22,682 bases of DNA from a virus. Below the pieces are notes generated by a model. The model was not told where the DNA came from. It saw only the letters and a list, made by a program, of their open reading frames with translations, and did not search any database. Both the position numbers and the translations under genes were made by a program. Shown here one piece after another: positions 1 to 12,767 of the stretch. Within the stretch, counting starts at the first letter, position 1, and the number at the start of each line of letters is the position of its first letter. The stretch covers positions 1 through 22,682 of IMG/VR virus record IMGVR_UViG_3300010354_000716; one strand, given 5' to 3'.

Positions 1-119
1 CTACAGCAATCTTTCGGCTTTGGGAGCCTCCGGTCGGTGGTTCGAATCCACCCTGTTGGACATAGTAATATGTCTTATGGTAGCTCAGCGGTAGAGCAGA
101 GTATAGTGCATCCTGTTTT
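1..119 (+). ncRNA. Y RNA-like RNA with permuted tRNA-mimic module (5' end outside window)
   Basis: Seen: a perfect T-arm (GGTGG TTCGAAT CCACC, 36-52) is followed by a 12-bp helix with one T-T mismatch (53-64 with 69-80) capped by GTAA, then a canonical D-arm (GCTC 83-86 / GAGC 94-97 with GCGGTA loop). This is tRNA order turned inside out: T-arm, acceptor 3' strand, loop, acceptor 5' strand, D-arm. Flanks are CTACAGCAA (1-9) and AGTGCATCCTGT (105-116), followed by a T run. The same two flanks occur in the RNA at 21724-21782, where a 7-bp stem pairs AGGATGC with GCATCCT. The 5' strand AGGATGC is therefore predicted just outside the window. Known: bacterial Y RNAs carry a stem bound by Ro/Rsr and a tRNA-like module. 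Inferred: this is a phage Y RNA. It could instead be a permuted tRNA gene, but no CCA or anticodon loop is visible. Confidence 0.62.
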
Positions 120-774: not shown

Positions 775-1266
775 ATGGATCAATTTGTTAAGAATATAGA
801 TTTGAAAAAAGCAATTGAAAATAAGACTCATCTTAAATTCAACTTAGAAACATTACCAAGTATAAATTGGAATGACATCTTAACTTGTCTAAGCGATAAT
901 GTAAAAAGTAAAAGTTTTATTAAAGTCATGCCTAACTTTGGGACTGTGGTCCATGACACAAGTATGAATAAGACAATTACTGATGTTTCAAAATCTATAC
1001 AAATGATTAATATAGATGCGCAAGTTACTGCACATTTATATATTTCATTTACAGATAGTGCTAGAACATTTGGTTGGCATAACGACGACGTCGATGTTAT
1101 ATTTTGGCAAATACAAGGAACTACGCTTTTTAGTGTAAAAGAAAACAACCATTTTTTTGATTATAGATTACAGGTTAATGATCTTATATACATTCCAAAA
1201 ACAATGGAACATAACACAAAGCCTATAACTCCTAGAGCAGGAATTTCATTTGGATTAGCATACTAA
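775..1266 (+). CDS. JmjC/cupin-like 2OG-Fe(II) oxygenase-type protein
   Basis: A 163-aa DSBH protein. Visible motif: H102-N-D104 followed by VDVIFWQIQG, then LIYIPKTMEH with distal H146 and R154. This is the HxD...H metal triad of JmjC-like/cupin 2-oxoglutarate oxygenases, including the typical FWQIxG strand after HxD. The N-terminal 95 residues probably form the rest of the fold. It is shorter than cellular JmjC enzymes but similar to stand-alone phage oxygenases. No Shine-Dalgarno precedes the ATG; a TATAAATA box ends six bases upstream, hinting at a leaderless late transcript. Its stop codon touches the ATG of the next oxygenase, so the two are probably co-expressed. Substrate unknown. Confidence 0.75.
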   Translation: MDQFVKNIDLKKAIENKTHLKFNLETLPSINWNDILTCLSDNVKSKSFIKVMPNFGTVVHDTSMNKTITDVSKSIQMINIDAQVTAHLYISFTDSARTFGWHNDDVDVIFWQIQGTTLFSVKENNHFFDYRLQVNDLIYIPKTMEHNTKPITPRAGISFGLAY

Positions 1267-1848
1267 ATGATCAAAGAACTTGATGTATTAAAATTGCCGT
1301 TCTATCAATGGCAACTTGAAGATGAAATTATAGATAAAGTAAACAGCATTGTTCCTAGTTTAGACTATTTTCCTAACGATTATAATTTTTCAACCAACTA
1401 CTCTTGTGACTTAGATTTTATTGTAGATGAAATAAATTATCGATTAGATGAACTTAAAGAAATTCTGTATCCAAACAATAACCAATTTAAAATAGAAGTA
1501 ACTGAATATTGGGCAAACAAAACTGATTTCTCGTCGCAACATCATAAACACAATCATCCTAATTCATTATTCAGTGGTATAATATACTTGACAAATCATA
1601 ATAAGGGTGGTTTTACTAGATTCTATTATGAGAATTTATTTTATTGGCATCCATTTATTGTAACTTTAAATCAAAACAAAGATTTGCATTTTGATGTTTC
1701 TCCTAAAAAAGGGATGATGATTGTGTTTCCTAGTAACATTAAGCATTCTGTTGTGCCTAATAGAAGTAGGGAAACTAGATATACAATTTCATTTAATACA
1801 TTTTTTAAAGGAATGATTGGAGAGAATTCTTATAATTTAAAAATTTAA
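1267..1848 (+). CDS. putative 2OG-Fe(II) oxygenase (2OG-FeII_Oxy_5 type)
   Basis: A 193-aa protein with the signature of the Oxy_5 family: H95-N-H97-P-NS followed by LFSGIIYLTN, then KKGMMIVFPSNIKH with distal H160 and a 2OG-binding Arg in RETRYTISFNTFF (168-180). The family normally reads HxHxNSxxSGVxYL...GxLxxFPSxxxHxVxxN...R. The N-terminus LDVLKLPFYQWQL resembles that of the paralogue at 16768, so the two are likely duplicates. It starts at the base after the upstream oxygenase stop codon and ends two bases before tRNA-Gly. It probably hydroxylates a protein or small molecule; the target is unknown. Confidence 0.8.
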   Translation: MIKELDVLKLPFYQWQLEDEIIDKVNSIVPSLDYFPNDYNFSTNYSCDLDFIVDEINYRLDELKEILYPNNNQFKIEVTEYWANKTDFSSQHHKHNHPNSLFSGIIYLTNHNKGGFTRFYYENLFYWHPFIVTLNQNKDLHFDVSPKKGMMIVFPSNIKHSVVPNRSRETRYTISFNTFFKGMIGENSYNLKI

Positions 1849-1850
1849 TT

Positions 1851-1925
1851 GCGGGTATGGTGCTAGTGGTAACACATGACTTTGCCAAAGTTAAGTTGCG
1901 AGTTCGATTCTCGCTACCCGCTCCA
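1851..1925 (+). tRNA. tRNA-Gly(GCC)
   Basis: Acceptor GCGGGTA/TACCCGC, anticodon arm TGACT-TTGCCAA-AGTTA (GCC; one G-T pair), T-arm GCGAG-TTCGATT-CTCGC, T discriminator, CCA encoded. Two bases after the preceding stop codon. Confidence 0.93.
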
Positions 1926-1930
1926 TACAA

Positions 1931-2023
1931 GGAAGGTTGGCTGAGAGGCTGAAGGCAGCGGTTTGCTAAACCGTCGATCGTTTTAAAAGCGGTCCAAGGG
2001 TTCGAATCCCTTACCTTCCACCA
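1931..2023 (+). tRNA. tRNA-Ser(GCT)
   Basis: Class II tRNA with acceptor GGAAGGT/ACCTTCC, anticodon loop TTGCTAA (GCT), long variable arm, T-arm AAGGG-TTCGAAT-CCCTT, A discriminator and CCA. Confidence 0.94.
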
Positions 2024-2039
2024 AACAAAGGAATTTATT

Positions 2040-2192
2040 ATGCCTATGTATGAAACTACTGTAAAAACACCCCAAGGTGAAGAGAAGAAAAGAATATATG
2101 CTGAAAATGTTCAAGAAGCTAAAAAACTTTTTGAACAACTGTATGGTGGTCCTAGAGCAGTGCCTTATATTCCTAAGGTTGTTGCTAGCTAA
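2040..2192 (+). CDS. small hypothetical protein, 50 aa
   Basis: A short ORF starting MPMYETTVKTPQGEEKKRIY and ending PRAVPYIPKVVAS. AAAGGA lies eight bases before the ATG, and the stop codon is followed three bases later by the methyltransferase gene. The sequence (TVKTPQGEEKKRIYAENVQEAKKLFEQLYG) looks like a two-stranded sheet plus helix, as in small phage proteins that act on amino-acid-side modification or translation, but I cannot assign a function. Coding nature is supported by the Shine-Dalgarno, the fit between tRNA-Ser and the next gene, and ordinary composition. Confidence 0.65.
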   Translation: MPMYETTVKTPQGEEKKRIYAENVQEAKKLFEQLYGGPRAVPYIPKVVAS

Positions 2193-2195
2193 TAA

Positions 2196-2966
2196 ATGGA
2201 CAATATTCAAAAAAAAATTGTCGACTATTGGAATAAGCAACCGTGCAATATCAAGCACAGTTCAGCAGAAGTTGGCACAGAACAATTCTTTAATGATATA
2301 ACAAATAAAAGATTATTTGTCGAACCTCATGCTGCTACTTTTGCTCAATATCACTTATATCAGAATAAACGTGTTTTAGAAATTGGCTGTGGTATAGGAA
2401 CAGAAGCTGCTGAATTTGCTAAACACGGTGCAGAGTATGTAGGTCTAGATATTAGTAAAAACAGTTTAGAATTGGCAAGAAAGAGATTTGAAATATTTGA
2501 CCTTGCTGGACAATTTCACCTTAGAAATGCTGCCGAAGATCTTAGTGATTTGGGATTGTTTGATCTAGTTTATTCATACGGTGTAATACATCATTATCCA
2601 AATGAGCAAGACATCATTAAACAAATTCATAAAGTTCTTAAACCACAAGGCGAATTTAAGTTTATGGTATATGCGAAGAATAGTTGGAAATATGCTATGA
2701 TACGCAAAGGTCTGGATCAATATGAGGCACAACCAGGTTGTCCATTTGCTAAGGTTTATACACAAGAAGAGATATATACATTGCTAGATGGATATTTTGA
2801 AGTAAAAAGAATTAGACAAGATCATTGTTTCATGTATAATATAGACAAATACAAACAAAACGTATACGAACTTGAATCTTGGTTTGCTGCTATGCCTCCC
2901 CAGGTGATAGAAGCATTGAAAGAATATCTAGGTTGGCATTTAATGATAAAAGCAGTAAAAATTTAA
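2196..2966 (+). CDS. class I SAM-dependent methyltransferase
   Basis: A 256-aa Rossmann methyltransferase. Motif I is VLEIGCGIGTEAAEFA (60-75), the acidic residue after beta-2 is in YVGLDIS (D85), and a motif IV-like strand is FDLVYSYGVIHHYPN (about 121-135) with a following LKPQGEFKFMVY strand. The VIHHYPN stretch is typical of Methyltransf_11/25 small-molecule or lipid-type methyltransferases rather than DNA methylases (no DPPY or PC motif). A C-terminal extension (about 170-256) contains Cys and aromatic residues. It lies three bases after the 50-aa ORF and one base before tRNA-Ala. Substrate unknown; it might serve peptide or surface-glycan modification with its neighbours. Confidence 0.82.
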   Translation: MDNIQKKIVDYWNKQPCNIKHSSAEVGTEQFFNDITNKRLFVEPHAATFAQYHLYQNKRVLEIGCGIGTEAAEFAKHGAEYVGLDISKNSLELARKRFEIFDLAGQFHLRNAAEDLSDLGLFDLVYSYGVIHHYPNEQDIIKQIHKVLKPQGEFKFMVYAKNSWKYAMIRKGLDQYEAQPGCPFAKVYTQEEIYTLLDGYFEVKRIRQDHCFMYNIDKYKQNVYELESWFAAMPPQVIEALKEYLGWHLMIKAVKI

Positions 2967-2967
2967 T

Positions 2968-3042
2968 GGGGGATTAGTATAGTTGGGAAAACACCGCGTT
3001 TGCACCGCGGAGTCAGCGGTTCGACCCCGCTATCCTCCACCA
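2968..3042 (+). tRNA. tRNA-Ala(TGC)
   Basis: Acceptor GGGGGAT/ATCCTCC, anticodon arm CCGCG-TTTGCAC-CGCGG (TGC), T-arm AGCGG-TTCGACC-CCGCT, A discriminator, CCA. The third acceptor pair is G-T. Confidence 0.93.
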
Positions 3043-3047
3043 ACAAT

Positions 3048-3122
3048 TCCAGATTAGCTCAGCGGTAGAGCAGTTGACTGTTAATCAATTGGTCCCTGGT
3101 TCGATCCCAGGATCTGGAGCCA
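3048..3122 (+). tRNA. tRNA-Asn(GTT)
   Basis: Acceptor TCCAGAT/ATCTGGA, D-arm GCTC...GAGC, anticodon arm TTGA-CTGTTAA-TCAA (GTT), T-arm CCTGG-TTCGATC-CCAGG, G discriminator, CCA. Confidence 0.94.
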
Positions 3123-3128
3123 TAATTT

Positions 3129-3228
3129 GCCCCCGTAGCTTAATTGGTAAAGAAGCGAGCTTATACCTCGCCAAAGCACAGGCCAGATAAGCCTGAGTGT
3201 GCAGGTTCGAGTCCTGCCGGGGGCACCA
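3129..3228 (+). tRNA. unusual tRNA-Ile-like gene with two anticodon-arm-like hairpins
   Basis: A 100-nt gene with acceptor GCCCCCG/CGGGGGC, T-arm GCAGG-TTCGAGT-CCTGC, A discriminator and CCA. Two perfect 5-bp, 7-nt-loop hairpins follow the D-arm. The first is GCGAG-CTTATAC-CTCGC (TAT in the anticodon position, U33 present). The second is CAGGC-CAGATAA-GCCTG (GAT in the anticodon position, A instead of U33), followed by a normal 5-nt variable loop AGTGT. Both triplets are Ile anticodons. It can be read as an Ile(TAT) tRNA with a very long (about 29-nt) variable arm, or as an Ile(GAT)-type tRNA with an inserted second anticodon arm. Confidence 0.75.
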
Positions 3229-3250
3229 ACAAACACAGAGAGGAAATAAA

Positions 3251-3331
3251 ATGGAAATTTTAGCAATTAATCTTGCATCAATATTTTTGATGTCATTGGT
3301 CTACACATTTAGTGAAATTATAGACATGTGA
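3251..3331 (+). CDS. tiny membrane peptide, 26 aa
   Basis: A short ORF, MEILAINLASIFLMSLVYTF followed by SEIIDM, preceded by a strong GAGAGGAAAT ribosome binding site. Residues 3-20 are a single hydrophobic helix. The stop codon TGA lies inside the first four bases of tRNA-Cys, so gene and tRNA overlap. It resembles the 20-aa membrane peptide at 4742 in layout (strong site, hydrophobic, between tRNAs), not in sequence. Function unknown. Confidence 0.5.
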   Translation: MEILAINLASIFLMSLVYTFSEIIDM

Positions 3332-3405
3332 AGGTGGCAGAGAGGCCCAATGCAACAGTCTGCAAAACTGTAAAACCGCCGGTTCAAATCCGGCCCTTCA
3401 CTCCA
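3328..3405 (+). tRNA. tRNA-Cys(GCA)
   Basis: Acceptor GTGAAGG/CCTTCAC, anticodon arm ACAGT-CTGCAAA-ACTGT (GCA), T-arm GCCGG-TTCAAAT-CCGGC, T discriminator (required by CysRS) and CCA. Its 5' end contains the stop codon of the 26-aa ORF. Confidence 0.93.
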
Positions 3406-3410
3406 ATAAC

Positions 3411-3484
3411 GGCCCTGTAGTTAAATGGTATAACGGTCGACTGATAATCGGCTATTACAAGTTCGATTCTTGTTGGGGCTACCA
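3411..3484 (+). tRNA. tRNA-Ile(GAT)
   Basis: Acceptor GGCCCTG pairs with TGGGGCT using three G-T pairs; anticodon arm GTCGA-CTGATAA-TCGGC (GAT); T-arm ACAAG-TTCGATT-CTTGT; A discriminator; CCA. This is the ordinary Ile tRNA, in contrast to the odd gene at 3129. Confidence 0.91.
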
Positions 3485-3491
3485 ATAAATA
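3484..3491 (+). promoter_or_regulatory. late-promoter-like box AATAAATA
   Basis: One mismatch from TATAAATA, beginning on the last A of tRNA-Ile's CCA. The ATG of the next gene is five bases downstream, as at 761/775, so the transcript would start at about the ATG. Confidence 0.4.
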
Positions 3492-3496
3492 TCTAC

Positions 3497-4132
3497 ATGC
3501 ATTATTTTCAAACTGATTTTGATTTTTCGGATGGAACAAAGAAATTAATCAAAAAACGATTTGAAAATTTTTGGGTGAAAGAATTTGAGCACGATGCCGA
3601 GTATGCTACACTCAAGAATATATTTGACATTAGTTCAATAGGAAAAGAACTTAGAACTTTTCTAAAATCATACGATATAGATTTCAAGTATGGTGGTGTA
3701 AATGCATTTATTAGTAACACAACCAGCTATACCAAAACCAACCCGCATGTGGATGTTTTGCATAAAGACAATTTTTTGCCTATAAAATCAAGATTCAACG
3801 TAATGATTTTAGGTAACCCAAATGATCCTATGATATGGTGGAAAGATTTTACATTTGGAAATCCGAATCATGTTAAACATAAATTTTCATATTTTGGAAA
3901 AGAATATGAATCTCTAGGAGTTCCTGGAGAATCTATAAAAGAAAGATTAGAGTATCTAGGAGCTCCTAGCTGTATTAAACATAATCTTTTGACGCCTAGT
4001 GCTTTTGTGAACACGTTTTCTGCACATGCATTAGAAATTTCTCCAGGACCTAGATTAATAATAAGTGTTCCAATCGACAAGCATATTGATCAATACTACC
4101 GTAGTTCAATGGATAGAACAACTCTCTCCTAA
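3497..4132 (+). CDS. putative 2OG-Fe(II) oxygenase-like protein overlapping tRNA-Arg
   Basis: A 211-aa protein beginning MHYFQTDFDFSDG. Visible DSBH signature: NPH84-V-D86 (HxD), then SRFNVMILGN and MIWW strands, and a distal FSAH177ALEISPGPR186LIISV with the 2OG-binding Arg. An insert of about 50 residues (120-168) separates the halves. I chose ATG 3497 rather than an in-frame TTG at 3470, which lies inside tRNA-Ile. The last 13 codons run through the 5' half of tRNA-Arg(CCT), and the TAA stop coincides with the anticodon loop CTCCTAA. The mRNA and tRNA are therefore mutually exclusive products. Substrate unknown. Confidence 0.7.
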   Translation: MHYFQTDFDFSDGTKKLIKKRFENFWVKEFEHDAEYATLKNIFDISSIGKELRTFLKSYDIDFKYGGVNAFISNTTSYTKTNPHVDVLHKDNFLPIKSRFNVMILGNPNDPMIWWKDFTFGNPNHVKHKFSYFGKEYESLGVPGESIKERLEYLGAPSCIKHNLLTPSAFVNTFSAHALEISPGPRLIISVPIDKHIDQYYRSSMDRTTLS

Positions 4133-4169
4133 AGAGTAGATACAGGTTCGACTCCTGTCGGAAGTGCCA
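4095..4169 (+). tRNA. tRNA-Arg(CCT)
   Basis: Acceptor ACTACCG/CGGAAGT with one A-A mismatch, D-stem GTTC/GAAC, anticodon arm ACTCT-CTCCTAA-AGAGT (CCT), T-arm ACAGG-TTCGACT-CCTGT, G discriminator, CCA. Its first 38 bases overlap the 3' end of the preceding coding region. Confidence 0.87.
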
Positions 4170-4174
4170 AAAAT

Positions 4175-4246
4175 ACCTCCACTGTCGGAACAGCGTCTGG
4201 TCTTCTAAACCGGATTAGGGGAGTTCGATTCTCTCTGGAGGTGCCA
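4175..4246 (+). tRNA. tRNA-Arg(TCT) with short D-arm
   Basis: Acceptor ACCTCCA/TGGAGGT, anticodon arm CTGGT-CTTCTAA-ACCGG (TCT), T-arm GGGAG-TTCGATT-CTCTC, G discriminator, CCA. Only 15 bases separate acceptor and anticodon stem; the D-arm reduces to CTGT-CGGA-ACAG. Confidence 0.88.
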
Positions 4247-4252
4247 ACAAAT

Positions 4253-4327
4253 ACCACCTTAGTATAATGGAGAATACACTCGGTTACGACCCGGGAAACG
4301 TGGGTTCGATTCCTGCAGGTGGTGCCA
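4253..4327 (+). tRNA. tRNA-Arg(ACG)
   Basis: Acceptor ACCACCT/AGGTGGT, anticodon arm CTCGG-TTACGAC-CCGGG (ACG; A34 would need conversion to inosine), T-arm GTGGG-TTCGATT-CCTGC, G discriminator, CCA. Confidence 0.92.
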
Positions 4328-4334
4328 TAAAAAT

Positions 4335-4425
4335 CTGGTAGGGGTAAGGTTGCGTAGCAATACCTGTATGAGTGAAAGGCTCATATGTCTAGACAGAGGA
4401 CCCACACGCCCTACGGAGTCTGTCT
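4335..4425 (+). ncRNA. possible pseudoknotted structured RNA between two tRNAs
   Basis: Seen in the 98 bases between tRNA-Arg and tRNA-Leu: hairpin TATGAG-TGAAAGG-CTCATA (4367-4385), hairpin around TTGC-GTA-GCAA (4350-4360), GTAGGG (4338-4343) complementary to CCCTAC (4409-4414), and AGACAGA (4391-4397) complementary to TCTGTCT (4419-4425). The last two helices cross, so together they would make a pseudoknot. The final helix ends at the base before tRNA-Leu. No ORF, promoter or known RNA family is recognised. Confidence 0.35.
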
Positions 4426-4503
4426 GCCCTTCTGGACAAATCGGTAAAGTCGTCTTCCTCAAAAGGAGAAATTTTCTTGGTTCAAATCCAAGGAAGGGCA
4501 CCA
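4426..4503 (+). tRNA. tRNA-Leu(CAA)-type anticodon in a class I body
   Basis: Acceptor GCCCTTC/GAAGGGC, D-stem GAC/GTC, anticodon arm TCTTC-CTCAAAA-GGAGA (CAA), short variable loop AATTTT, T-arm CTTGG-TTCAAAT-CCAAG, A discriminator, CCA. Bacterial tRNA-Leu normally has a long variable arm; this one does not. Confidence 0.8.
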
Positions 4504-4510
4504 AAATATA

Positions 4511-4539
4511 TTGACACAGATACAGTTAGGTAATACAAT
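4511..4539 (+). promoter_or_regulatory. consensus sigma70-type promoter
   Basis: TTGACA (4511-4516), 17-bp spacer, TACAAT (4534-4539). It lies in the gap after tRNA-Leu and drives the short leader ORF/hairpin and probably tRNA-Lys. It is one of two such near-perfect promoters in the window (the other at 21685). Confidence 0.75.
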
Positions 4540-4561
4540 TATTAATGTTAAGGAGAAAGGT

Positions 4562-4582
4562 ATGAATCCTGCTAAACCTTAG
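4562..4582 (+). CDS. six-codon leader peptide (MNPAKP)
   Basis: A strong Shine-Dalgarno-like run AAGGAGAAAGG ends just before an ATG that opens only six codons, MNPAKP, then TAG. The G of the stop codon is the first paired base of a strong hairpin (4582-4620). Placement 22 bases after a consensus promoter suggests a leader peptide or attenuator-like element, but no T run follows the hairpin. The peptide ends in Lys-Pro-stop, and Pro before a stop codon is known to slow termination. Coding status is tentative. Confidence 0.4.
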   Translation: MNPAKP

Positions 4583-4620
4583 TGTCCGCTATACTTCCAT
4601 TGTAAGGTATAGTTGGGCAC
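4582..4620 (+). other. stable hairpin after the leader ORF
   Basis: GTGTCC (4582-4587) pairs with GGGCAC (4615-4620) and CTATAC (4589-4594) with GTATAG (4607-4612), with a small internal loop. It lies between the leader ORF and tRNA-Lys. No T run follows, so it is not a simple terminator; it may be a processing or attenuation structure, or the body of a small RNA. Confidence 0.5.
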
Positions 4621-4645
4621 GTTAAATCAACAGATACAATACAAT

Positions 4646-4721
4646 GGGACGTTAGCTCAGTTGGTAGAGCAGTAGACTTTTAATCTATTGGTCGTGGGTT
4701 CGAACCCCGCACGTCCTACCA
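4646..4721 (+). tRNA. tRNA-Lys(TTT)
   Basis: Acceptor GGGACGT/ACGTCCT, D-arm GCTC...GAGC, anticodon arm TAGA-CTTTTAA-TCTA (TTT), T-arm GTGGG-TTCGAAC-CCCGC, A discriminator, CCA. Confidence 0.94.
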
Positions 4722-4741
4722 ATTACAAACTAGGAGTGAAT

Positions 4742-4804
4742 ATGGCAGCGATAGTTATAATATTCATAATGAGTATCTTGTATAGTTATATGAGAAAGAT
4801 CTAG
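4742..4804 (+). CDS. tiny membrane peptide, 20 aa
   Basis: MAAIVIIFIIMSILYSYMRK plus Ile, stop. An AGGAG ribosome binding site is six bases before the ATG. The whole peptide is one hydrophobic helix with a positively charged C-terminus, which predicts N-out/C-in insertion by the positive-inside rule. It lies just downstream of tRNA-Lys and upstream of the structured RNA. Function unknown; possibly a membrane-active phage peptide. Confidence 0.5.
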   Translation: MAAIVIIFIMSILYSYMRKI

Positions 4805-4810
4805 AATTAT

Positions 4811-5104
4811 TCGCCAGGATAGGGCGATAAAAAAAAGGGGGAGTGTTTAGCAGGACATGAGAATCTGCCTACTCTTAAACAACAATAATTGTGCCCCAAA
4901 GCATACCTCGGATACCCTTATCCGTTATTATTTAAGGGAGTAGGTGGTTACTAGATCCACCGGGCACACACGGAATAGGCCTTATAGACCCGCGATATGG
5001 GAGACTTGAAACACCGTGGGGCAGGAGCGAAACCTGTCCATATTAAAAAATGAGTGGACAGGGTAACAACTTAGGTCGGGGCTGATGGGGATCAGTGACC
5101 GACC
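4811..5104 (+). ncRNA. unidentified structured RNA of about 290 nt with alternative hairpins
   Basis: This gene-free stretch is rich in helices. TCGCC/GGCGA lies at 4811-4827. TGTTTA (4844) pairs with TAAACA (4876) around a GCAG/CTGC hairpin. TGTGCCC (4890-4896)/GGGCACA (4962-4968) encloses CGGATA-CCCT-TATCCG (4909-4924) and GGTGG/CCACC (4943-4961), and loop-strand CCCTTA (4915-4920) can also pair with TAAGGG (4933-4938). CACGG/CCGTG lies at 4969-5018. CCTGTCC (5033-5039) can pair either upstream with GGGCAGG (5019-5025) or downstream with TGGACAGG (5055-5062). It ends in an intrinsic terminator. No SRP, RNase P, tmRNA or tRNA motif is recognised. The 5' end is not defined. Confidence 0.55.
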
Positions 5105-5115
5105 ATTTTTATTTT
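5074..5115 (+). terminator. intrinsic terminator
   Basis: Hairpin GGTCGG (5074-5079)/CCGACC (5099-5104) with inner helix CTGAT-GGGG-ATCAG (5082-5095), followed by ATTTTTATTTT. It ends the + strand RNA-rich region just as the convergent minus-strand gene's stop codon is reached. Confidence 0.85.
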
Positions 5116-5600
5116 ACATCAAAATTCATTGAAATAATTATTTTTGATTCTTTTGAATTGTTTGGTGGAGATTTGTGTTTAATCCAACCCGGAAATACAA
5201 TAATGTCGCCTTCTTTCAAATCAGGTCTTATAACTGTATCAGCATCTGTTTGAAATGCAGTAGGTGATGAACCTGTAGGTAGATTGACATAGTAAACCAA
5301 TGCCCATTGACATTCATGTGAATGAAATGGATGATATGAATATTTTTGGTATTCTTGAAACCAACAGTTTAAAATGTTTATTTTTTCTTTTGGAAAAATT
5401 TTATCTAGTTCGTTTACAATTATAGGAATAAGAAAAGTTTTATATTCTGGTAAATGATCAATTTGGAAATCAGTTTTTGTAATTTCAGCTGAGGAATTGA
5501 AATTTGCCTTGTTAATATACTCTATTAATTTCTGCTTTGTTTCTCCATGACACGATAAGTTTAATACATAGTATGGAATTTGAAAATAATTCTTTTGCAT
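5109..5600 (-). CDS. putative 2OG-Fe(II) oxygenase (2OG-FeII_Oxy_5 type)
   Basis: A 163-aa DSBH protein starting MQKNYFQIPYYVLNLSCHGE. Motif region YHPFH93-S-H95-E96-CQWALVYYVNLP, then LKEGDIIVFPGWIKH142KSPPN, then ESKIIISMNF. The layout matches Oxy_5 proteins (HxH, GxIxxFPxxxxH, final NF strand). The usual 2OG-binding Arg before the last strand appears to be Lys153, a possible change in cosubstrate binding. Convergent with the structured RNA and its terminator, and divergent from the cupin gene at 5651. No clear Shine-Dalgarno. Substrate unknown. Confidence 0.75.
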   Translation of the reverse strand: MQKNYFQIPYYVLNLSCHGETKQKLIEYINKANFNSSAEITKTDFQIDHLPEYKTFLIPIIVNELDKIFPKEKINILNCWFQEYQKYSYHPFHSHECQWALVYYVNLPTGSSPTAFQTDADTVIRPDLKEGDIIVFPGWIKHKSPPNNSKESKIIISMNFDVK

Positions 5601-5611
5601 ATAAAGGCTCT

Positions 5612-5619
5612 CATAAATA
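5612..5619 (+). promoter_or_regulatory. late-promoter-like box CATAAATA
   Basis: One mismatch from TATAAATA, in the gap between divergent genes. The ATG of the cupin gene is 31 bases downstream, with AGGA in between, so this transcript would have a normal short leader. Confidence 0.4.
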
Positions 5620-5650
5620 TTTACGTTTGTAAAATGTATCAGGAAAATTT

Positions 5651-6103
5651 ATGCCACAACCAACAATAGAAATATTCGCTGTTAGCAATGTCTATACTAG
5701 AATAATGAATTTCAAAAAAGCAGGTGACATTGAAATTGGACATTATCATACATACGACCACGGAACACTTATTAGTTCTGGATCTATAAAACTTGAAATA
5801 CTTGGGGAGAATTTAGAAACTATAGAAACCAAAATTTACAAGGCTCCTCGAATGGTGTTGATTAAAAAAGAATTTAAGCATAGATTAACTGCACTAGAAG
5901 ATAATACCGTAGCAGTTTGCATTCATGCTTTACGAGACGTTGAAGGAGAACTATTACCTGTAGAAACTATAGAAGAGGTAATTCACACTACACCGGATGA
6001 AGATAGGAAAGCCTTGATAGAACACAGAAATTCTAATAGTGTTAAAGAATATTTGAATAAAAAAAATATTGTTTTAGAAAATATGGTAGATAACAAGTCT
6101 TAA
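5651..6103 (+). CDS. cupin-fold protein
   Basis: A 150-aa protein with a cupin metal site: GH31-Y-H33-TYDH37 near residue 30, then IKKEFKH77RLTALEDNTVAVCIHALRD. Cupin motif 1 usually reads G(x)5HxH(x)3-4E and motif 2 G(x)5PxG(x)2H(x)3N; here D36/H37 stand near the motif 1 Glu and H77 is the second-motif His. There is no HxD or distal Arg, so it looks like a stand-alone cupin rather than a 2OG oxygenase. The charged C-terminus (105-150) is probably helical. AGGA precedes the ATG. The gene ends three bases before the oxygenase at 6107. Role unknown. Confidence 0.75.
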   Translation: MPQPTIEIFAVSNVYTRIMNFKKAGDIEIGHYHTYDHGTLISSGSIKLEILGENLETIETKIYKAPRMVLIKKEFKHRLTALEDNTVAVCIHALRDVEGELLPVETIEEVIHTTPDEDRKALIEHRNSNSVKEYLNKKNIVLENMVDNKS

Positions 6104-6106
6104 AGT

Positions 6107-6700
6107 ATGGATGATATTGTTGTAATTGAAAATTTCTTCCCTTTAGTAGTCTATAGAGAAATACTGAATAAAGTTCATAGTTCAGAAACTAGATGGTTTT
6201 TTAAGGACAAAAATTTAAGCCATCCTATAGATTATGAGATCTACAAAGCACAATTACAGGATGTTAAAATTTTTGAAAATGTTAAAGGATTTCAAAGTGA
6301 ACTTTACAATGACAACATGACTGATTCAGATAATAGAATTAAAAATGTTTTCACTAGTTATATCGAAAAACAATTCAATATTACAGTCAATCATATTTTA
6401 AGAATTAATTGCAACTTTATAATCCCCTGTTCAAACTTTCCAAGCAACTCTTACATGCTACCACATACAGATGTAAATATTCCACATAAAACTTTAATTT
6501 ACTATATAAATGATTGTGATGGAGAAACAGTTTTTTTCAACAGAATATTAGATAAAGAAATTAATTACAGTGGTTTAACAGTAGAGAAAAAAATTACCCC
6601 TTCAAAAAATAAAGCAGTTTTGTTTAATGGACTTAGATTACATTCGTCTAGTCCGTCACAGACAATTCTTAGAAAAATTATAAACGTAAACTTTACCTAA
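6107..6700 (+). CDS. putative 2OG-Fe(II) oxygenase (prolyl-hydroxylase-like)
   Basis: A 197-aa protein with MLPH120-T-D122 followed by KTLIYYINDCDGETVFF, then a KNKAVLFNGLRLH179SSSP strand and R189 in TILRKIINVNF. This is the complete HxD...H...R set of prolyl-4-hydroxylase-like DSBH enzymes. The N-terminus DDIVVIENFFPLVVYREIL is typical of this family. It is three bases after the cupin gene, with which it probably forms an operon. The convergent oxygenase at 6693-7316 overlaps its last eight bases. Substrate unknown. Confidence 0.82.
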   Translation: MDDIVVIENFFPLVVYREILNKVHSSETRWFFKDKNLSHPIDYEIYKAQLQDVKIFENVKGFQSELYNDNMTDSDNRIKNVFTSYIEKQFNITVNHILRINCNFIIPCSNFPSNSYMLPHTDVNIPHKTLIYYINDCDGETVFFNRILDKEINYSGLTVEKKITPSKNKAVLFNGLRLHSSSPSQTILRKIINVNFT

Positions 6701-7316
6701 AATATTGCAGATTACTTTCATAATCTAATTTGTTGTTATAATCTGCATAGGGAAAATCATCCTTTGTGTGATTCCACCAACCTGTAGCAATATATTTAGA
6801 TAATCTACGAGGAGGGTTACCTCTGTGAAGATGTGTAAAGTATGCAGGCCAAATTAATATATTTCCCTGTTTAGGTGTTATTTCTAAATTTTGATATAAA
6901 AATTCAGTAGTCCCATCCCCTTCTTCCATAGTATTCAAATAAAGCATCCAAACTAAAACTCTATTACTTAAATCATTAATATTGTGTTCGTGATGCCAGG
7001 AATGAAATCCGCCATATACTGGTGTGCGTTGAAGCTTGCAGTGATCTGATATTAGAGTATATTGATTTAAACTTGAATACACGTCAATATAAGTTTTTAA
7101 ACAATACGTTAACGTTTTCTTAAGTTTTTTAAAATCTGGATTAAATGTAAATTTAAATTCTTTGCTAAAATCATGTCTGTTGTTATCTAATATTTCAAAT
7201 TCAGGATATTCTTTATTTTCTAGTAAATCAATCAATTTTAGACAGTCATTGCTATCAACAGCATTTTCAAACTCTGCTATATCATTATGAAATTTAACCA
7301 TACTTATTTTTTGCAT
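6693..7316 (-). CDS. putative 2OG-Fe(II) oxygenase
   Basis: A 207-aa protein. Motif region VYGGFHSWH108-H-E110-HN, then RVLVWMLYLNT, GDGTTEFLYQNLEITPKQGNI (in two stretches) and LIWPAYFTH162LHRGNPP with a following KYIATGWWNH strand. HxE replaces HxD, which is a tolerated variant. The overall pattern is that of phage oxygenases related to the prolyl-hydroxylase group. The start is supported by AGGAAG seven bases upstream. Its 5' end overlaps the 3' end of the upstream same-strand gene by 13 bases, indicating translational coupling, and its 3' end overlaps the convergent gene by eight bases. Confidence 0.8.
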   Translation of the reverse strand: MQKISMVKFHNDIAEFENAVDSNDCLKLIDLLENKEYPEFEILDNNRHDFSKEFKFTFNPDFKKLKKTLTYCLKTYIDVYSSLNQYTLISDHCKLQRTPVYGGFHSWHHEHNINDLSNRVLVWMLYLNTMEEGDGTTEFLYQNLEITPKQGNILIWPAYFTHLHRGNPPRRLSKYIATGWWNHTKDDFPYADYNNKLDYESNLQYFR

Positions 7317-7795
7317 AGTATACTTCCTATCAATAATTTTTCTTCATTTGATTGAATAGGATTGATTCTAAAAGCATGAGTAAAGCTAGATGGAAAAATT
7401 AAAAACATATTGTCTGTGATATGAATTTTTCCATCTTCTATGAATTCTACAGATACAGCGTTAGAAGATCTAGATAACTTACCTATTAAGGTTAATGTAG
7501 AAGGACGTGAATTAATTTGATCCAAAAAATTCCAAGAGTTTATGTATTGGTATTTTGCTAAATTTATAATGGACAAATAGTTTATATTGCTGTTTTCAGC
7601 TTGTATTAATGAGTTTTTATAAAGTTTTTTTACTATCGTGTGTAGTTGAGAGGTTAAACTGTTATCCAATACATCATAATGAGTAGAAAGAAACTTTCTA
7701 TTTTTTCTAACTAACCCTGTGTTATTGTGTAAATAAGTTTCAAAACTAGAAATTATTTTTTCGTCCAAAACATCCACAAAACTTTGTATATACAT
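7304..7795 (-). CDS. degenerate DSBH protein related to 2OG oxygenases
   Basis: A 163-aa protein (MYIQSFVDVLDEKIISSFET...) with the end of a DSBH fold: HITDNMFLIFPSSFTH140AFRINP and a final KLLIGSILCKK strand. The stretch where HxD should lie (about 85-105) has no HxD or HxE, so iron binding is doubtful. It may be an inactive partner of the oxygenase it overlaps downstream. I start it at ATG (7793-7795) rather than an in-frame TTG farther upstream. That puts its ATG one base from the ATG of the + strand gene at 7797, with no visible ribosome binding site for either. Confidence 0.65.
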   Translation of the reverse strand: MYIQSFVDVLDEKIISSFETYLHNNTGLVRKNRKFLSTHYDVLDNSLTSQLHTIVKKLYKNSLIQAENSNINYLSIINLAKYQYINSWNFLDQINSRPSTLTLIGKLSRSSNAVSVEFIEDGKIHITDNMFLIFPSSFTHAFRINPIQSNEEKLLIGSILCKK

Positions 7796-7796
7796 T

Positions 7797-8006
7797 ATGA
7801 GCAAAATTAGTCGATTAGCTGATAAAATTCAAGATCGAATTAAAATTCTAAATGTTGCAGATAATGAAACTGCCACCAAAAGAATAGAAATTTGCAATAG
7901 TTGTGAATATTTATCGACCACTACCAAACGTTGTCAGAAATGCGGATGTTTTATGTTTGCAAAAACCAAACTACTTTTTGCTCAGTGCCCAATAGACAAA
8001 TGGTAA
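7797..8006 (+). CDS. small zinc-ribbon-like protein, 69 aa
   Basis: Residues 33-64 carry C33-x-x-C36 and C46-x-x-C49-G-C51, with a final AQC64PIDKW. This arrangement, ICNSCEYLSTTTKRCQKCGC then a conserved F-KTKLLFAQCPIDKW, fits a small zinc-binding protein found widely in large phages, with no known role. The N-terminal 30 residues are predicted helical and charged. Its stop overlaps the ATG of the next gene (ATGGTAA), so the two are coupled. No ribosome binding site; it starts one base from a divergent ATG. Confidence 0.8.
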   Translation: MSKISRLADKIQDRIKILNVADNETATKRIEICNSCEYLSTTTKRCQKCGCFMFAKTKLLFAQCPIDKW

Positions 8007-8560
8007 ATCAACACAGTTTAATAACAGATTTAATTGGCCATTACAAAGGTGCTATAAAACCAGAGCTTTGTAATAGAATTACAAATTCTAATGGATATAA
8101 ATGGAGCAAGCATCAATGGACTTTTTATGATACCATTGTGGATACGTCAAATAAAACAAATGAATTTGATGTTACCTATAACATTGATAGAGTTTCTAAG
8201 CTCATAATTAATCAAGCAATTAATGAATGCCTAGACATATATTCTTTGCAACATAAGGTAATCTGTAGATCACATTCAAATCTTAGAATAAATCGATATT
8301 CTAAAGGACATAACATAGACAGTCATTATGATCATATAACTTCTTTGTTTGATGAGAGTAAAAAAGGAATCCCTGTGTTATCTATCGTAGGATTGTTAAA
8401 TGATGACTTTGAAGGTGGAAAATTTTACTTTTGGGATGATTATGAAATGGATCTTAAACAAGGAGATATAATTATTTTCCCCAGTATTTTTGCCTACAAA
8501 CATGCTACCACAACAGTGACTTTGGGAAATAGATGGAGTTTTGTTAGTTGGGCTTATTGA
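8000..8560 (+). CDS. putative 2OG-Fe(II) oxygenase (prolyl-4-hydroxylase-like)
   Basis: A 186-aa protein with full motif set: RINRYSKGHNIDSH109-Y-D111-H, then IPVLSIVGLLNDDFEGGKFYF, LKQGDIIIFPSIFAYKH168 and R178 in GNRWSFVSWAY. Strongly typical of P4H/PKHD-type oxygenases, including the GGxFxF strand. A longer in-frame start at 7931 would overlap the zinc-ribbon gene by 76 bases; ATG 8000, embedded in ATGGTAA of that gene, gives the expected N-terminus. Its stop codon is directly followed by the ATG of the PP-loop gene, so zinc-ribbon, oxygenase and PP-loop enzyme look like one operon. Confidence 0.86.
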   Translation: MVNQHSLITDLIGHYKGAIKPELCNRITNSNGYKWSKHQWTFYDTIVDTSNKTNEFDVTYNIDRVSKLIINQAINECLDIYSLQHKVICRSHSNLRINRYSKGHNIDSHYDHITSLFDESKKGIPVLSIVGLLNDDFEGGKFYFWDDYEMDLKQGDIIIFPSIFAYKHATTTVTLGNRWSFVSWAY

Positions 8561-9484
8561 ATGAATTGGATAAACTATTATTGGGACGACGGAACCGACA
8601 TTCTGTGCTCTTCTAAAACTGGCACGTTTGTAATTGATGTTTCAAACATTGAACTTCATAACAATGATGTTTTAGAAGAATCAATTGCCGCAGTTAAATT
8701 TATAATTAATTCTAATCCGCCACCATATAGATTATTGTTAAGTGGTGGAATTGATAGTCAAGCTATGGTTTATGCTTGGCTCAAATCAGGGGTGGATTTT
8801 GAAGCTCATACTTTTATATATGATGAAATAATGAATAACCATGATATTCATCAATTGTATGAATTCTCCAAGGAATATCCTTTTAGCATAGAAACACATA
8901 AAATTAGTCATTTTGAATTTTTAAATCATCATCTGCATTCCTACTCAAAAAAATATAATTGTAATAGTCCACAGTTAAACTTCTACATGTATATGATGGA
9001 CAGATTCAAAGATGGAACCCTAGTTCTATCAGGTAACCCTCCTATGAATTTAACCATGTGGGTTGATTACTCGCTTCATTCTCTGATTAGATATCAAAAA
9101 ATTAATCAACGAAATCTTGTTCCATTCTTTCACATTCATACGCCTAAACTTGCCGGTTCATGGGTTTCTAAAATTAGATCTCAACATTTTGATAGACAAG
9201 AGCTGGGATCTGCTGGCACAAATGAACTAAAGACTCTATTATATCTAGATAGCGGGTTTCCTGTTCTTATAACAGGTAAAAAATCAGGATTTGAAAAATA
9301 TAAAATATACTTCGATTCGCATACATTAGATAAAAAAATCAGGCAAAAAATACTACTAAATACAAGAAATGTTAGCAGACGCATGTATGATATATTATTC
9401 AGGCATTCGTTGGAATTAGAAAATCCTGTGTCTGCTACTACGAAAATTATAGGGTTAGATTATAATGACAAAGTATCTTATTGA
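8561..9484 (+). CDS. asparagine-synthase-like PP-loop ATPase
   Basis: A 307-aa protein with the PP-loop motif LLLSGGIDSQAMVYAW (about 59-74), which binds ATP pyrophosphate in enzymes that adenylate a carboxyl or amide. The conserved second block VLSGNPPMNLTMWVDYS (about 153-170) and a C-terminal SGFEKYKIYFD motif resemble asparagine-synthase C-terminal domains in large phages. There is no N-terminal glutaminase domain and no catalytic Cys2, so ammonia, or another nucleophile such as a peptide amine, would be needed. Related proteins close lasso peptides (B protein) in bacteria. It overlaps the protease gene by 20 bases. A peptide or protein amide-forming role is inference. Confidence 0.75.
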   Translation: MNWINYYWDDGTDILCSSKTGTFVIDVSNIELHNNDVLEESIAAVKFIINSNPPPYRLLLSGGIDSQAMVYAWLKSGVDFEAHTFIYDEIMNNHDIHQLYEFSKEYPFSIETHKISHFEFLNHHLHSYSKKYNCNSPQLNFYMYMMDRFKDGTLVLSGNPPMNLTMWVDYSLHSLIRYQKINQRNLVPFFHIHTPKLAGSWVSKIRSQHFDRQELGSAGTNELKTLLYLDSGFPVLITGKKSGFEKYKIYFDSHTLDKKIRQKILLNTRNVSRRMYDILFRHSLELENPVSATTKIIGLDYNDKVSY

Positions 9485-11510
9485 TTTTGAACAAAATGCT
9501 ACTTTAGAACAAATACAAGGTTATTTCCAACGTAACTCGTGTGTTCAGCTTCACATCTACAATAATTTTGATAAAGTATATTTGGTTGAATCTGAGAATA
9601 CACCGCCTATTGAATCTATAATAACAAGTGTCATCAACGATTCAGAATCTAACATTGCTCCATTGAATAATACTGCCGTATGCATAGATAGCCTAAGCAC
9701 ATCTTCTATTACGATTGATGACGACAAGAATTGGTGGAAGGTTGTAACTTATGTAAATGTAGACTTTACAGAGGAAACATTAAACATAAAAAGATTTGGC
9801 AGTAAAGTAACAATTTATCTTTTAGATAGCGGAGTTGATTTAACTCATCCAGAATTCCAAGGCGAAAATGTTAGTCAAATCTACACTTTTAATGGCAATC
9901 CTACTGATGTTAATGGACACGGAACAGCTCTAGCAAGTTTAATTACAGGAAAAGATACTTCAATGACATCTTGTAAACTTGTAAGTTTAAAGATTTTTGA
10001 AGACGGAGTTCCAACACCTTTAAGTAAACTGTTAGAGGCATTTGATATCATTTATACAGATTCATTAAATCAAAAAGCTTCTATTGTTAATATGAGCTGG
10101 TCTATTCCTAATAACGAATATGTTAACAATAAATTAAGGTTATTACATTACGGCGCTAATATTGGACTAGTAGCGGCTGCAGGAAATAGCGGTCAAGAAA
10201 TAAAAGACGTAACTCCTGCCTGTCTAGACGAAGTTTTTGTAGTTGGTGCATATGATCAGAACTTATTACCTTGTAATTTCAGTAACTATACAAGTGACCT
10301 AAATAATACACCTCAAGAAACTAATCATGGAGAACTAGATGTTTGGGCTCCAGGTGAAAGTATATATGTTGCTTTACCTGAAAATAATTATGGATTTGTT
10401 TCAGGAACAAGTTTTTCGGCTGCTATACACACTGCGGCATTGGCAGCAGATATTGATATACAATATTCTTTAGATTCAAATACATTAATTTCAAAAACTG
10501 TGCCTGTTAACGAAATCATAGATTCTGGGTTTGCAGTTGGCAGACCTGGTTTGTTAGAACTTTCAGGAAAGTATTTAAATTCTGTTAACATGGTAACAAG
10601 TATGTATCCAACAGATAAATTTTCACGGATACATAATTTGCCAAGCCATCTACGTGTAGTAACAGGTGAAGATGCTGATCAACCTTTAATGTCTCAGACT
10701 GCTTGTAAATCAATGACTATTTTGTCAGAACTTCCGCCAGGATTGTCAATTACAGAATTTGGATGGTTAGTAGGAGTTCACAGCTCTTTACCCGAAGGAG
10801 TCAATTACACAACCTGGCCCTTGTCAATTGAATACATAATGAATGATGGGTCTGTTGTAGTTAAAAATTATGACTTATACATAGTTTCACCTGATTTACA
10901 ACCCACAGACGTTCCTGATGACTTAATATGGATAACACAGCTAGCACGAAATTGTAGCGAATTTATCTTTAATTGTGGTTTTGATAGATGCCCAATTACA
11001 AATAACAGACAATTAAGGTATTGTTGGAATCTTAACGGCTTTAAAAACCCAGGTTGTGAATACTGCTGTGTTGCGGCTAATTGTTGCTTTACACCAGAAA
11101 CTAAAATTATCATGAGCGATCTCACATCTAAAGAAATAAAAGATCTTGTTATTGGTGACAAAGTTCTGGTATACGACCTTGAAAAAAATCTTCATATTCA
11201 TAAAGAAGTAAAATGTGTTATCACGAGAACTGAACGTCCTATGTATACATACACATTTGACAATGGTGTGACATTAAATGCATCAGAAGATCATCCATTA
11301 TACGTTAAAGACAAAGGATGGGCATCTGTTATTCCGCCTAACGAATATAAAGATTTAAAATCTGTTCAAAAAATCGAAATTGGTGATATTGTCAAGATAC
11401 ATGACAATAGTTTTAGCAAGATAGTAAAGATTGAGGAACTAGATTATCCAGATACCGTATATGAATTAGACACTAGCGGATTTTATGCAAACGGTATATT
11501 AGCATATTAA
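9465..11510 (+). CDS. subtilisin-like protease with Ig-like, Cys-rich and Hint domains
   Basis: A 681-aa fusion. Residues 1-100 look like a propeptide-type region. The subtilase domain follows: D121 in IYLLDSGVDLTHPEF, H152 in NGHGTALAS, oxyanion N241 in AAAGNSG, S316 in SGTSFSAA. The triad is intact. A putative Ig domain (LPPGLSITEFGWLVG, about 423-437) follows, then a Cys-rich stretch (about 497-541, nine Cys), then a Hint domain starting C541-FTPETKI with a SEDHPLYV block (H610) and ending GFYANGILAY. Hint domains self-cleave at their Cys. There is no terminal Asn, so protein splicing is unlikely and N-terminal cleavage is more plausible. No signal peptide is visible. It may process a structural or modified peptide. 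Confidence 0.9.
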   Translation: MTKYLIDFEQNATLEQIQGYFQRNSCVQLHIYNNFDKVYLVESENTPPIESIITSVINDSESNIAPLNNTAVCIDSLSTSSITIDDDKNWWKVVTYVNVDFTEETLNIKRFGSKVTIYLLDSGVDLTHPEFQGENVSQIYTFNGNPTDVNGHGTALASLITGKDTSMTSCKLVSLKIFEDGVPTPLSKLLEAFDIIYTDSLNQKASIVNMSWSIPNNEYVNNKLRLLHYGANIGLVAAAGNSGQEIKDVTPACLDEVFVVGAYDQNLLPCNFSNYTSDLNNTPQETNHGELDVWAPGESIYVALPENNYGFVSGTSFSAAIHTAALAADIDIQYSLDSNTLISKTVPVNEIIDSGFAVGRPGLLELSGKYLNSVNMVTSMYPTDKFSRIHNLPSHLRVVTGEDADQPLMSQTACKSMTILSELPPGLSITEFGWLVGVHSSLPEGVNYTTWPLSIEYIMNDGSVVVKNYDLYIVSPDLQPTDVPDDLIWITQLARNCSEFIFNCGFDRCPITNNRQLRYCWNLNGFKNPGCEYCCVAANCCFTPETKIIMSDLTSKEIKDLVIGDKVLVYDLEKNLHIHKEVKCVITRTERPMYTYTFDNGVTLNASEDHPLYVKDKGWASVIPPNEYKDLKSVQKIEIGDIVKIHDNSFSKIVKIEELDYPDTVYELDTSGFYANGILAY

Positions 11511-12175
11511 TTTTGGATATATTCTAGATATTTTTCTTTTATATTTTTAACTTTGTATTCCAACATAGAACTACTATTGTTGCTAACACAGCCAGTAGGA
11601 AAGCTGTTGAAAACATAGGTATATCTTACATTTTTTTGATGGTTAAAGACCTTAACCCTATGTAGCAGCCTAGAAGGATAAAGTATTAATTTACCTCGCT
11701 GACTTGGTATCTTTATATGCCTTATGTCTGTATCCTCAATACTGATAATTTGCTCAACATGTTCAAGTTCTCTTGGCGCAATTTCAAATGCTGTATATGA
11801 ATTGTTGTCTGTGAGGTAAAGTATTCCGCTTAAAACACTATTTTGATGATAGTGAGCTGTCACAGTCTTTAAAGAAGTTCCTTTCGTAAGCCATGCATCA
11901 CATATAGCAAAATCGATTTGTTTACCCCAAAAATAATAGTTTACAGCTTCTGCAATACAAGTGTTAAGCCAGTTGAATAACTTCTCATTATATGGTGGAA
12001 TTCTAAGATCCTTATTGACCATTCCTATTTCAAACGCATTAACATCATTTTCCCGCGCTATATGCCAATTAGGAACTTGTCCGATTAAGCCTTTGGTTAT
12101 TGTATCTAGTTCATCTAGATCAGGAAAATGAAATTCTAAAATATTTCCTGTGTTATCAAACTCAATTGTTTTCAT
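11507..12175 (-). CDS. putative 2OG-Fe(II) oxygenase (2OG-FeII_Oxy_5 type)
   Basis: A 222-aa protein with the Oxy_5 signature H108-Y-H110-QNSVLSGILYLTD, then QRGKLILYPSRLLH172RV and R184 in NVRYTYVFNSFPTG. It resembles the proteins at 1267 and 16768 more than the P4H-like ones. It is convergent with the protease gene (four-base overlap of stops) and its start overlaps the 3' end of the upstream minus-strand gene by 14 bases, so the two are coupled. Substrate unknown. Confidence 0.83.
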   Translation of the reverse strand: MKTIEFDNTGNILEFHFPDLDELDTITKGLIGQVPNWHIARENDVNAFEIGMVNKDLRIPPYNEKLFNWLNTCIAEAVNYYFWGKQIDFAICDAWLTKGTSLKTVTAHYHQNSVLSGILYLTDNNSYTAFEIAPRELEHVEQIISIEDTDIRHIKIPSQRGKLILYPSRLLHRVKVFNHQKNVRYTYVFNSFPTGCVSNNSSSMLEYKVKNIKEKYLEYIQN

Positions 12176-12767
12176 TGTATACCTTTAAAATATAAGGGTC
12201 TAAACAGATAAAATTAAACCCTAAAATTATTCTTAAATTGTCAGACTGGCTAGGAGACACAAGATGCCTATAATTGCTGTTGAAAAAATAAATTGTATCT
12301 TCAAAGCAAGGTAAAGAAAATCCATCTTCAAAGGACAAAGGTGAATGCTCCTTATTACTCTGTAGATATAATACCGCAGAGAAATTACAGAAAGAACCGT
12401 GCCCGTGTAGTCTAGCATAGTCACCCTTTTTATAAACCGCAGCCCAAGATTCTTGAACTAAAAGTCTATATTCGTAATCTAAATCAAAAAAATCATTAAC
12501 TGTAGAATTGACTAGTGTTACAAGTTTATCAAATAAGCTCGTTTCTTTATGTATATGATAACTAGATTGCCAGCAAGACAATTTTGTATTTGTTTGTCCG
12601 TTTGTTTTACTACATTCAGATTTAATAAATTGTAGAATTTCTTGCTTATTGTATTGATTAGGATCAATCTTTGAACTATAAACTTCAAATGTTTGATCAC
12701 GTTTAACTATGGCTGTATGAACGGGACTTTTATTAAGTTTTTGTTCTAATTTGTCTTTGATTGTCAT
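12162..12767 (-). CDS. putative 2OG-Fe(II) oxygenase (variant HxH)
   Basis: A 201-aa protein with YARLH121-G-H123-GSFCNFSAVLYL, a LPCFEDTIYFFNSNYRH168LVSP strand and R179 in NLRIILGFNF. HxH replaces HxD, as in Oxy_5 members, and GSFCNFSAVLYL corresponds to the NSxxSGxxYL strand. The N-terminal 70 residues are polar and helical. It is the upstream member of a minus-strand pair with 11507-12175. Divergent from the gene at 12840. No strong ribosome binding site. Confidence 0.75.
   Translation of the reverse strand: MTIKDKLEQKLNKSPVHTAIVKRDQTFEVYSSKIDPNQYNKQEILQFIKSECSKTNGQTNTKLSCWQSSYHIHKETSLFDKLVTLVNSTVNDFFDLDYEYRLLVQESWAAVYKKGDYARLHGHGSFCNFSAVLYLQSNKEHSPLSFEDGFSLPCFEDTIYFFNSNYRHLVSPSQSDNLRIILGFNFICLDPYILKVYNENN

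Follow-up and report, generated by a model that had tools for sequence, protein, structure and literature searches.

The first 117 nucleotides of the window are best read (probability about 0.8) as a Y-RNA-like RNA from a phage whose genome also holds the gene for the RNA's likely partner, a DUF2828 protein with the Ro60 fold, the tRNA part of the RNA being the effector module. By the window we mean the whole stretch analysed, 22,682 nucleotides of the IMG/VR record IMGVR_UViG_3300010354_000716. The RNA belongs to a family that is widespread beside genes of Ro-like proteins in phages and bacteria, and probably in archaea. This family of small RNAs next to DUF2828 is apparently undescribed so far.

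A permuted tRNA module at the start of the window

The RNA at 1–117 (+ strand, as are all its elements) is a long, 5′-truncated member of the ACAGCAA/DUF2828-associated family, identified by its matches to the covariance model R1 and to YrlA. It opens with CTACAGCAA (1–9), a conserved single-stranded stretch that the family alignment A1 and the enrichment analysis place after the terminal stem's 5′ strand. An anticodon-arm-like element at 14–30 has the loop TTTGGGA (19–25), which is that of tRNA-Pro UGG; the stem below it, GGC/GCC (16–18/26–28), is weak. It is followed by the T-arm GGTGG-TTCGAAT-CCACC (36–52), recognised in the sequence, by folding and in the Rfam YrlA match, and by an acceptor-type helix found by folding (53–80), in which the 3′ strand comes first and the 5′ strand second. 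This helix contains one mismatched pair and several G-U pairs and is capped by a GTAA loop (65–68), with no CCA at the tRNA end. The D-arm GCTC-AGCGGTA-GAGC (83–97) is supported by the sequence and by the YrlA and R1 matches. At the 3′ end, GTGCATCCTGT (106–116) comprises the 3′ strand of the terminal stem, GCATCCT (108–114), and the conserved end; within it, GTGCATCCTG is identical to positions 21,772–21,781. The record begins at base 1, so that the 5′ strand lies beyond the contig end, and searches of the window's own record and of near relatives did not find the part missing upstream of position 1.

R1 was built from 11 long RNAs, all from other phages. It gives 1–117 a score of 55.2 bits (E 3.1e-9) and marks the match as truncated on the 5′ side. 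By chance, R1 scores at most 36–37 bits in the window, at junctions of real tandem tRNAs; the Rfam tRNA model scores the 1–117 region at 14.9 bits. The sequence-only reading had proposed a circularly permuted tRNA module here, with T-arm, GTAA-capped acceptor helix and D-arm in that order; the R1 score, the YrlA-like tRNA part and the arms themselves, read on the + strand at 36–97, bear this out. Single-sequence folding of 1–119 also forms the T-arm and the capped helix, but the stability is ordinary (z −0.27). Folding energy alone thus lends no support to the RNA, and the support comes from comparison.

Other features of the window include a tRNA found by Rfam at 3129–3225 and uncalled by ARAGORN, 97 nt long with a long variable arm and the loop CTTATAC; read in the usual way, its anticodon would be UAU. 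Spread over 775–12767 are many small genes of 2OG-Fe(II) oxygenase-like proteins; of the proteins tested, Pfam matched two (PF13759) and a JmjC-type one, and several more ORFs look similar. A subtilase gene (Peptidase_S8) with a C-terminal Hint/intein-like domain occupies 9465–11510.

A sister RNA and a Ro-like gene at the other end of the window

The sequence-only reading held that nothing else in the window needs such an RNA; it had overlooked a sister RNA at 21,724–21,783 and the Ro-like gene starting at 21,810. The sister RNA (+ strand), recognised by sequence, RF01414 and R1, is a short family member of the form AGGATGC-CTACAGCAA-hairpin-GTGCATCCTGTC and resembles the Class I RNAs of Dictyostelium. 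Its AGGATGC-CTACAGCAA...GTGCATCCTGT arrangement repeats the flanks of RNA 1–117, this time with both strands of the stem; the copy has a complete terminal stem, the CUGU end, and ACAGCAA adjoining the 5′ strand. R1 scores it at 31 bits and RF01414 at 21.1 bits (E 0.066). The RNA ends 26 bases 5′ of the truncated DUF2828 gene, and the same short copy is located 5′ of the DUF2828 gene in three relatives (L003–L005). The window record holds the ACAGCAA motif, the CTGT end and the DUF2828 gene together. Long relatives in Cronobacter phage S13 (L009) and L156 also have AGGATGC directly before CTACAGCAA and the same 3′ strand. Together with the sister RNA they lend indirect support to the sequence-only prediction that the seven bases preceding position 1 read AGGATGC or a close variant, which is plausible; the sister RNA may be the source of that prediction. 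In an unbiased search of viral contigs for CTACAGCAA...GTGCATCCTG, L156 was the sole real match, besides six chance matches. The exact AGGATGC version was absent from the bacterial genomes searched, in which the stems have other sequences.

The gene at 21,810–22,682 (+ strand) is cut by the contig end and encodes 291 aa of a Ro-like RNA-binding protein, matching Pfam DUF2828 (PF11443) at 93 bits (E 1.8e-26) and the PHROG family phrog_850, annotated as RNA-binding protein, at 304 bits. Hundreds of the phages sequenced to date encode a DUF2828 protein (680 records). When solved structures were searched with a profile of the DUF2828 protein, TROVE-domain proteins ranked at the top, with marginal significance (E 0.008). 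A structure model was obtained for the complete, nearly identical homologue from L003 (pLDDT 83). Over about 395 aligned residues it gives Z 17.6 against a TROVE domain, 16.4 against the Ro60 of phage phiLo and 15.8 against Xenopus Ro, versus 9.6 or less for unrelated vWA proteins. The predicted fold of the DUF2828 protein is that of full-length Ro60/TROVE, a HEAT-like ring plus a vWA domain.

The ACAGCAA RNA family at DUF2828 loci

Members of the family share a terminal stem whose 5′ strand is followed by ACAGCAA, invariant in alignment A1, and a 3′ end of the form C(C/T)TGT. Enrichment was scored as ACAGCAA after a stem of at least 7 pairs, the 3′ strand being followed by TG. In 17 viral DUF2828 loci, which were fetched by protein and hence not chosen by motif, this combination occurs 18 times, against a mean of 0.43 for 104 permuted motifs; the largest permuted count, 8, comes from a motif overlapping the true one. 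The 80 bacterial and archaeal DUF2828 loci contain 129 occurrences versus 1.86 for permuted motifs. All occurrences are on the strand of the gene. Bacterial and archaeal members frequently form tandem arrays, and 84 of the 91 RNAs in long loci lie at most 1.5 kb upstream of the DUF2828 gene. An RNA was not detected at every locus; 53 of the 80 bacterial and archaeal loci have one. Covariation was tested on the inner four pairs of the stem, with both RNA ends picked by their outer letters only, blind to pairing. Pairing was found in 19/32 cases versus 3.3 in permutations, 11/13 versus 1.2, 8/11 versus 1.1 and 15/18 versus 2.5.

The linkage also holds in the opposite direction. Among IMG/VR loci fetched by RNA patterns, all 19 that encode DUF2828 hold a stem-confirmed RNA (a few of these contigs are duplicates), and among whole phage records DUF2828 is present in 14 of the 21 that carry a confirmed RNA, compared with 1 of 21 with a chance motif match only. 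None of the eight TROVE loci that were scanned contains the motif. The inserts carried by the terminal stem are short hairpins, permuted tRNAs resembling YrlA, or tRNAs that bear the stem in the place of the anticodon.

Further structured RNAs were noticed in the records examined. One phage record with about nine ACAGCAA RNAs (L120) also carries a ROOL RNA (323 bits) and an OLE-like stretch, at 5852–6477 (−) and 187–276 (−), respectively. Permuted tmRNA genes (RF04321) are located near DUF2828 in two other phages (L010, 1780–2076; L006, 828–1125). The freshwater-1 RNA in L158, whose position suggested kinship, has no ACAGCAA motif and was rejected.

The tRNA part in relatives and alternative readings

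The acceptor strands pair at 7 of 7 positions in 14 of 22 long RNAs, against 1.6 when the strands are redealt, and an anticodon-arm-like hairpin is kept in 12 of the 22 (shuffle mean 1.7, maximum 6). Several long relatives (L009, L056, L074, L120, L122) keep NCCA in the acceptor loop. A mirror arrangement also occurs. DUF2828 loci contain 42 oversized tRNA-like genes, and in 23 of them a hairpin stands where the anticodon would be, with ACAGCAA immediately behind it; among permuted motifs that do not overlap the true one, the highest count in the same genes is 5. The two arrangements are related by circular permutation and represent a single composite, in which a tRNA body is attached to a Ro-type stem. 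Four tRNA-called genes with an ACAGCAA or variant stem in the anticodon place (L008, 7891–8005; L009, 7895–8015 and 8025–8137; L236, 3013–3129), some of them annotated as tRNA-Ser, OTHER or pseudo, look like Ro-stem tRNA chimeras.

Permuted tRNA genes exist in algae and archaea, and the 3′ half precedes the 5′ half in these genes, as it does in the window RNA. The window RNA could be such a gene, with a precursor that is cut and rejoined into a working tRNA, as in red algae. The anticodon arm kept by 12 of 22 long relatives, the NCCA in several acceptor loops and the existence of tRNAs in normal order that carry this stem where the anticodon would be fit this reading. We nevertheless regard it as improbable: the window copy is GTAA-capped with no CCA at the tRNA end, and the family also includes short hairpins devoid of any tRNA portion. 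Unlike the permuted tRNA genes, the window RNA would have ends that pair into a Ro-type stem, and its acceptor may be permanently capped. It is still less probable that the region is debris of a tRNA array, in which the contig end would have removed all but the 3′ half of a tRNA-Pro and the degenerate 5′ half of another tRNA would come next. Region 1–117 does head a tRNA array, tRNA-Pro UGG is present at 20,560, and neighbouring real tRNAs yield the same T-arm-to-D-arm order. Yet their best junction scores 37 bits with R1 against 55 for 1–117, which the Rfam tRNA model barely sees (14.9 bits); the sister RNA at 21,724 has the same flanks, CTACAGCAA and GTGCATCCTGT, and complete copies with both stem strands exist in other phages.

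Equally remote is true membership in YrlA (RF02553) with binding to TROVE Rsr, which has in its favour the common order of T-arm, capped acceptor and D-arm, a match of 27.3 bits at 28–104 (E 2.4e-4 in a 130-base search) and a relative with the best YrlA score, 40.8 bits over the full length, and against it a partial window match (model positions 23–88 of 114) far below the gathering score of 69 bits, a YrlA consensus with no ACAGCAA beside the basal stem, the lack of the motif in the eight TROVE loci scanned and a linked gene that encodes DUF2828, not TROVE. An Rfam scan of the window at gathering thresholds reported no YrlA. The match to bacterial Y RNAs drawn by the sequence-only reading thus stands in kind, given the Ro60-type fold encoded on the contig and the YrlA-like tRNA part, but the YrlA label does not, since the score is low and the basal stem differs; the flanks in the window are of the ACAGCAA-family type.

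A proposed tRNA-shaped Ro ribonucleoprotein

For the preferred reading, a Y-RNA-like RNA with a DUF2828 partner, we envisage the following. Once the RNA is expressed, its ends would pair into a short terminal stem, and the DUF2828 protein would recognise this stem together with the adjoining single-stranded ACAGCAA. The remainder of the RNA would act as an effector module, here tRNA-Pro-like and circularly permuted: the tRNA chain would have been opened between the D-arm and the anticodon arm, the stem attached there and the acceptor ends sealed by GTAA. The resulting RNP would resemble a tRNA on its surface but could not be charged with an amino acid. The tRNA part may hold nucleases or enzymes that act on tRNA at the Ro ring, by analogy with YrlA and PNPase, or it may serve as a decoy that occupies the anticodon nucleases of the host. 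For Salmonella YrlA, competition with an anticodon nuclease has been suggested (PMC7790460), and phage tRNAs have been suggested to counter such nucleases (PMC10264068). On the strength of these two proposals we favour a tether or decoy RNP.

Published work on Listeria phage CKA15 touches on the same system. Its DUF2828 protein was detected in purified particles, with the authors cautioning that association with the particle is uncertain, and abundant RNAs near the DUF2828 gene were proposed to be Y RNAs (PMC12282133). CKA15, accession OR088597, carries a cluster of ACAGCAA RNAs at 25,276–25,577, and the published most transcribed region lies elsewhere, at 26,236–26,727 (PMC12282133); the ACAGCAA cluster is present in 54 Listeria phage records. 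An unannotated, structured-looking stretch upstream of a Listeria-phage DUF2828 gene (L017, about 4440–5030) probably corresponds to the highly transcribed region of CKA15. That the most transcribed region of CKA15 is not the ACAGCAA cluster counts against the preferred reading, as do the missing 5′ stem strand, the mismatched and G-U acceptor pairs and the DUF2828 loci at which no RNA was detected.

In the literature we found, no RNA partner of DUF2828 is described. With a candidate partner family that sequence searches can pick out, Ro-type RNPs become open to experiment in a wide range of gut bacteria and laboratory phages. The tRNA-stem chimeras, which occur naturally in both permutations, also form a series with which to examine the role of the tRNA part in a Y RNA.

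Comparison with known systems

The closest known protein is the Ro60 of Thermus phage phiLo (PDB 9l5y), which shares the full-length fold with the DUF2828 model, its sequence similarity to DUF2828 being marginal (E 0.008). The Ro-like RNA-binding proteins of mycobacteriophages belong to the same DUF2828 family and have the same RNAs alongside (L016); for the Y RNAs suspected in these phages, no published description of an RNA family was found in the literature examined. YrlA with its partner Rsr (TROVE) is similar in layout: a tRNA-like module sits on a stem made by the RNA ends, as is predicted for the window RNA, and a gene for a Ro60-fold protein is a neighbour in both systems. By contrast, YrlA has its own basal stem in place of the basal stem plus ACAGCAA of the window family, and the protein encoded by the gene linked to the RNA on the window fragment is DUF2828, with a TROVE-like fold; the phage may still have a TROVE gene elsewhere. 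The window RNA also retains an anticodon loop, and many of its siblings have no tRNA part.

The short form of the phage RNAs resembles the Class I RNAs of Dictyostelium (RF01414; PMC7919456), in which a short stem joins the ends, CCUUACAGCAA stands beside the 5′ strand and the end is CUGU. As in the phage family, the interior is variable and the copies are many and diverged (PMC7919456). Class I RNAs have been reported in dictyostelids only, being absent from other organisms searched, and their known binder is an RRM protein (PMC7919456). The best phage match to RF01414 reaches 36.0 bits (E 1.4e-6 for that record), below the gathering score of 41.5. Matches cluster beside DUF2828, for example eight in about 4 kb of Aeromonas phage LAh_9. 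This phage was the only one of six further loci with matches, the five bacterial arrays giving none at E up to 1. As chance matches appear at this cutoff in 7 of 14 control genomes, only low-E and clustered matches are counted. The DUSE is a dictyostelid (eukaryotic) promoter element and is not expected in a phage. Since the phage scores are sub-threshold and the five bacterial arrays have no match, we put forward shared descent with the amoeba RNAs as a hypothesis. The phage family also gives a starting point for work on the Class I RNAs, which are unexplained in social amoebae. In its widest form, to which we give somewhat less than even odds, one ancient Ro-type RNP class of DUF2828 and stem-ACAGCAA RNAs would span phages, bacteria, archaea and eukaryotes, with Class I RNAs as its eukaryotic members and with tRNAs grafted repeatedly, in two permuted orders, to make tRNA-shaped effectors. 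Set beside these systems, the RNA and protein described here would make up a new form of the Ro/Y-type RNP, recognisable by a sequence signature that is both strong and testable.
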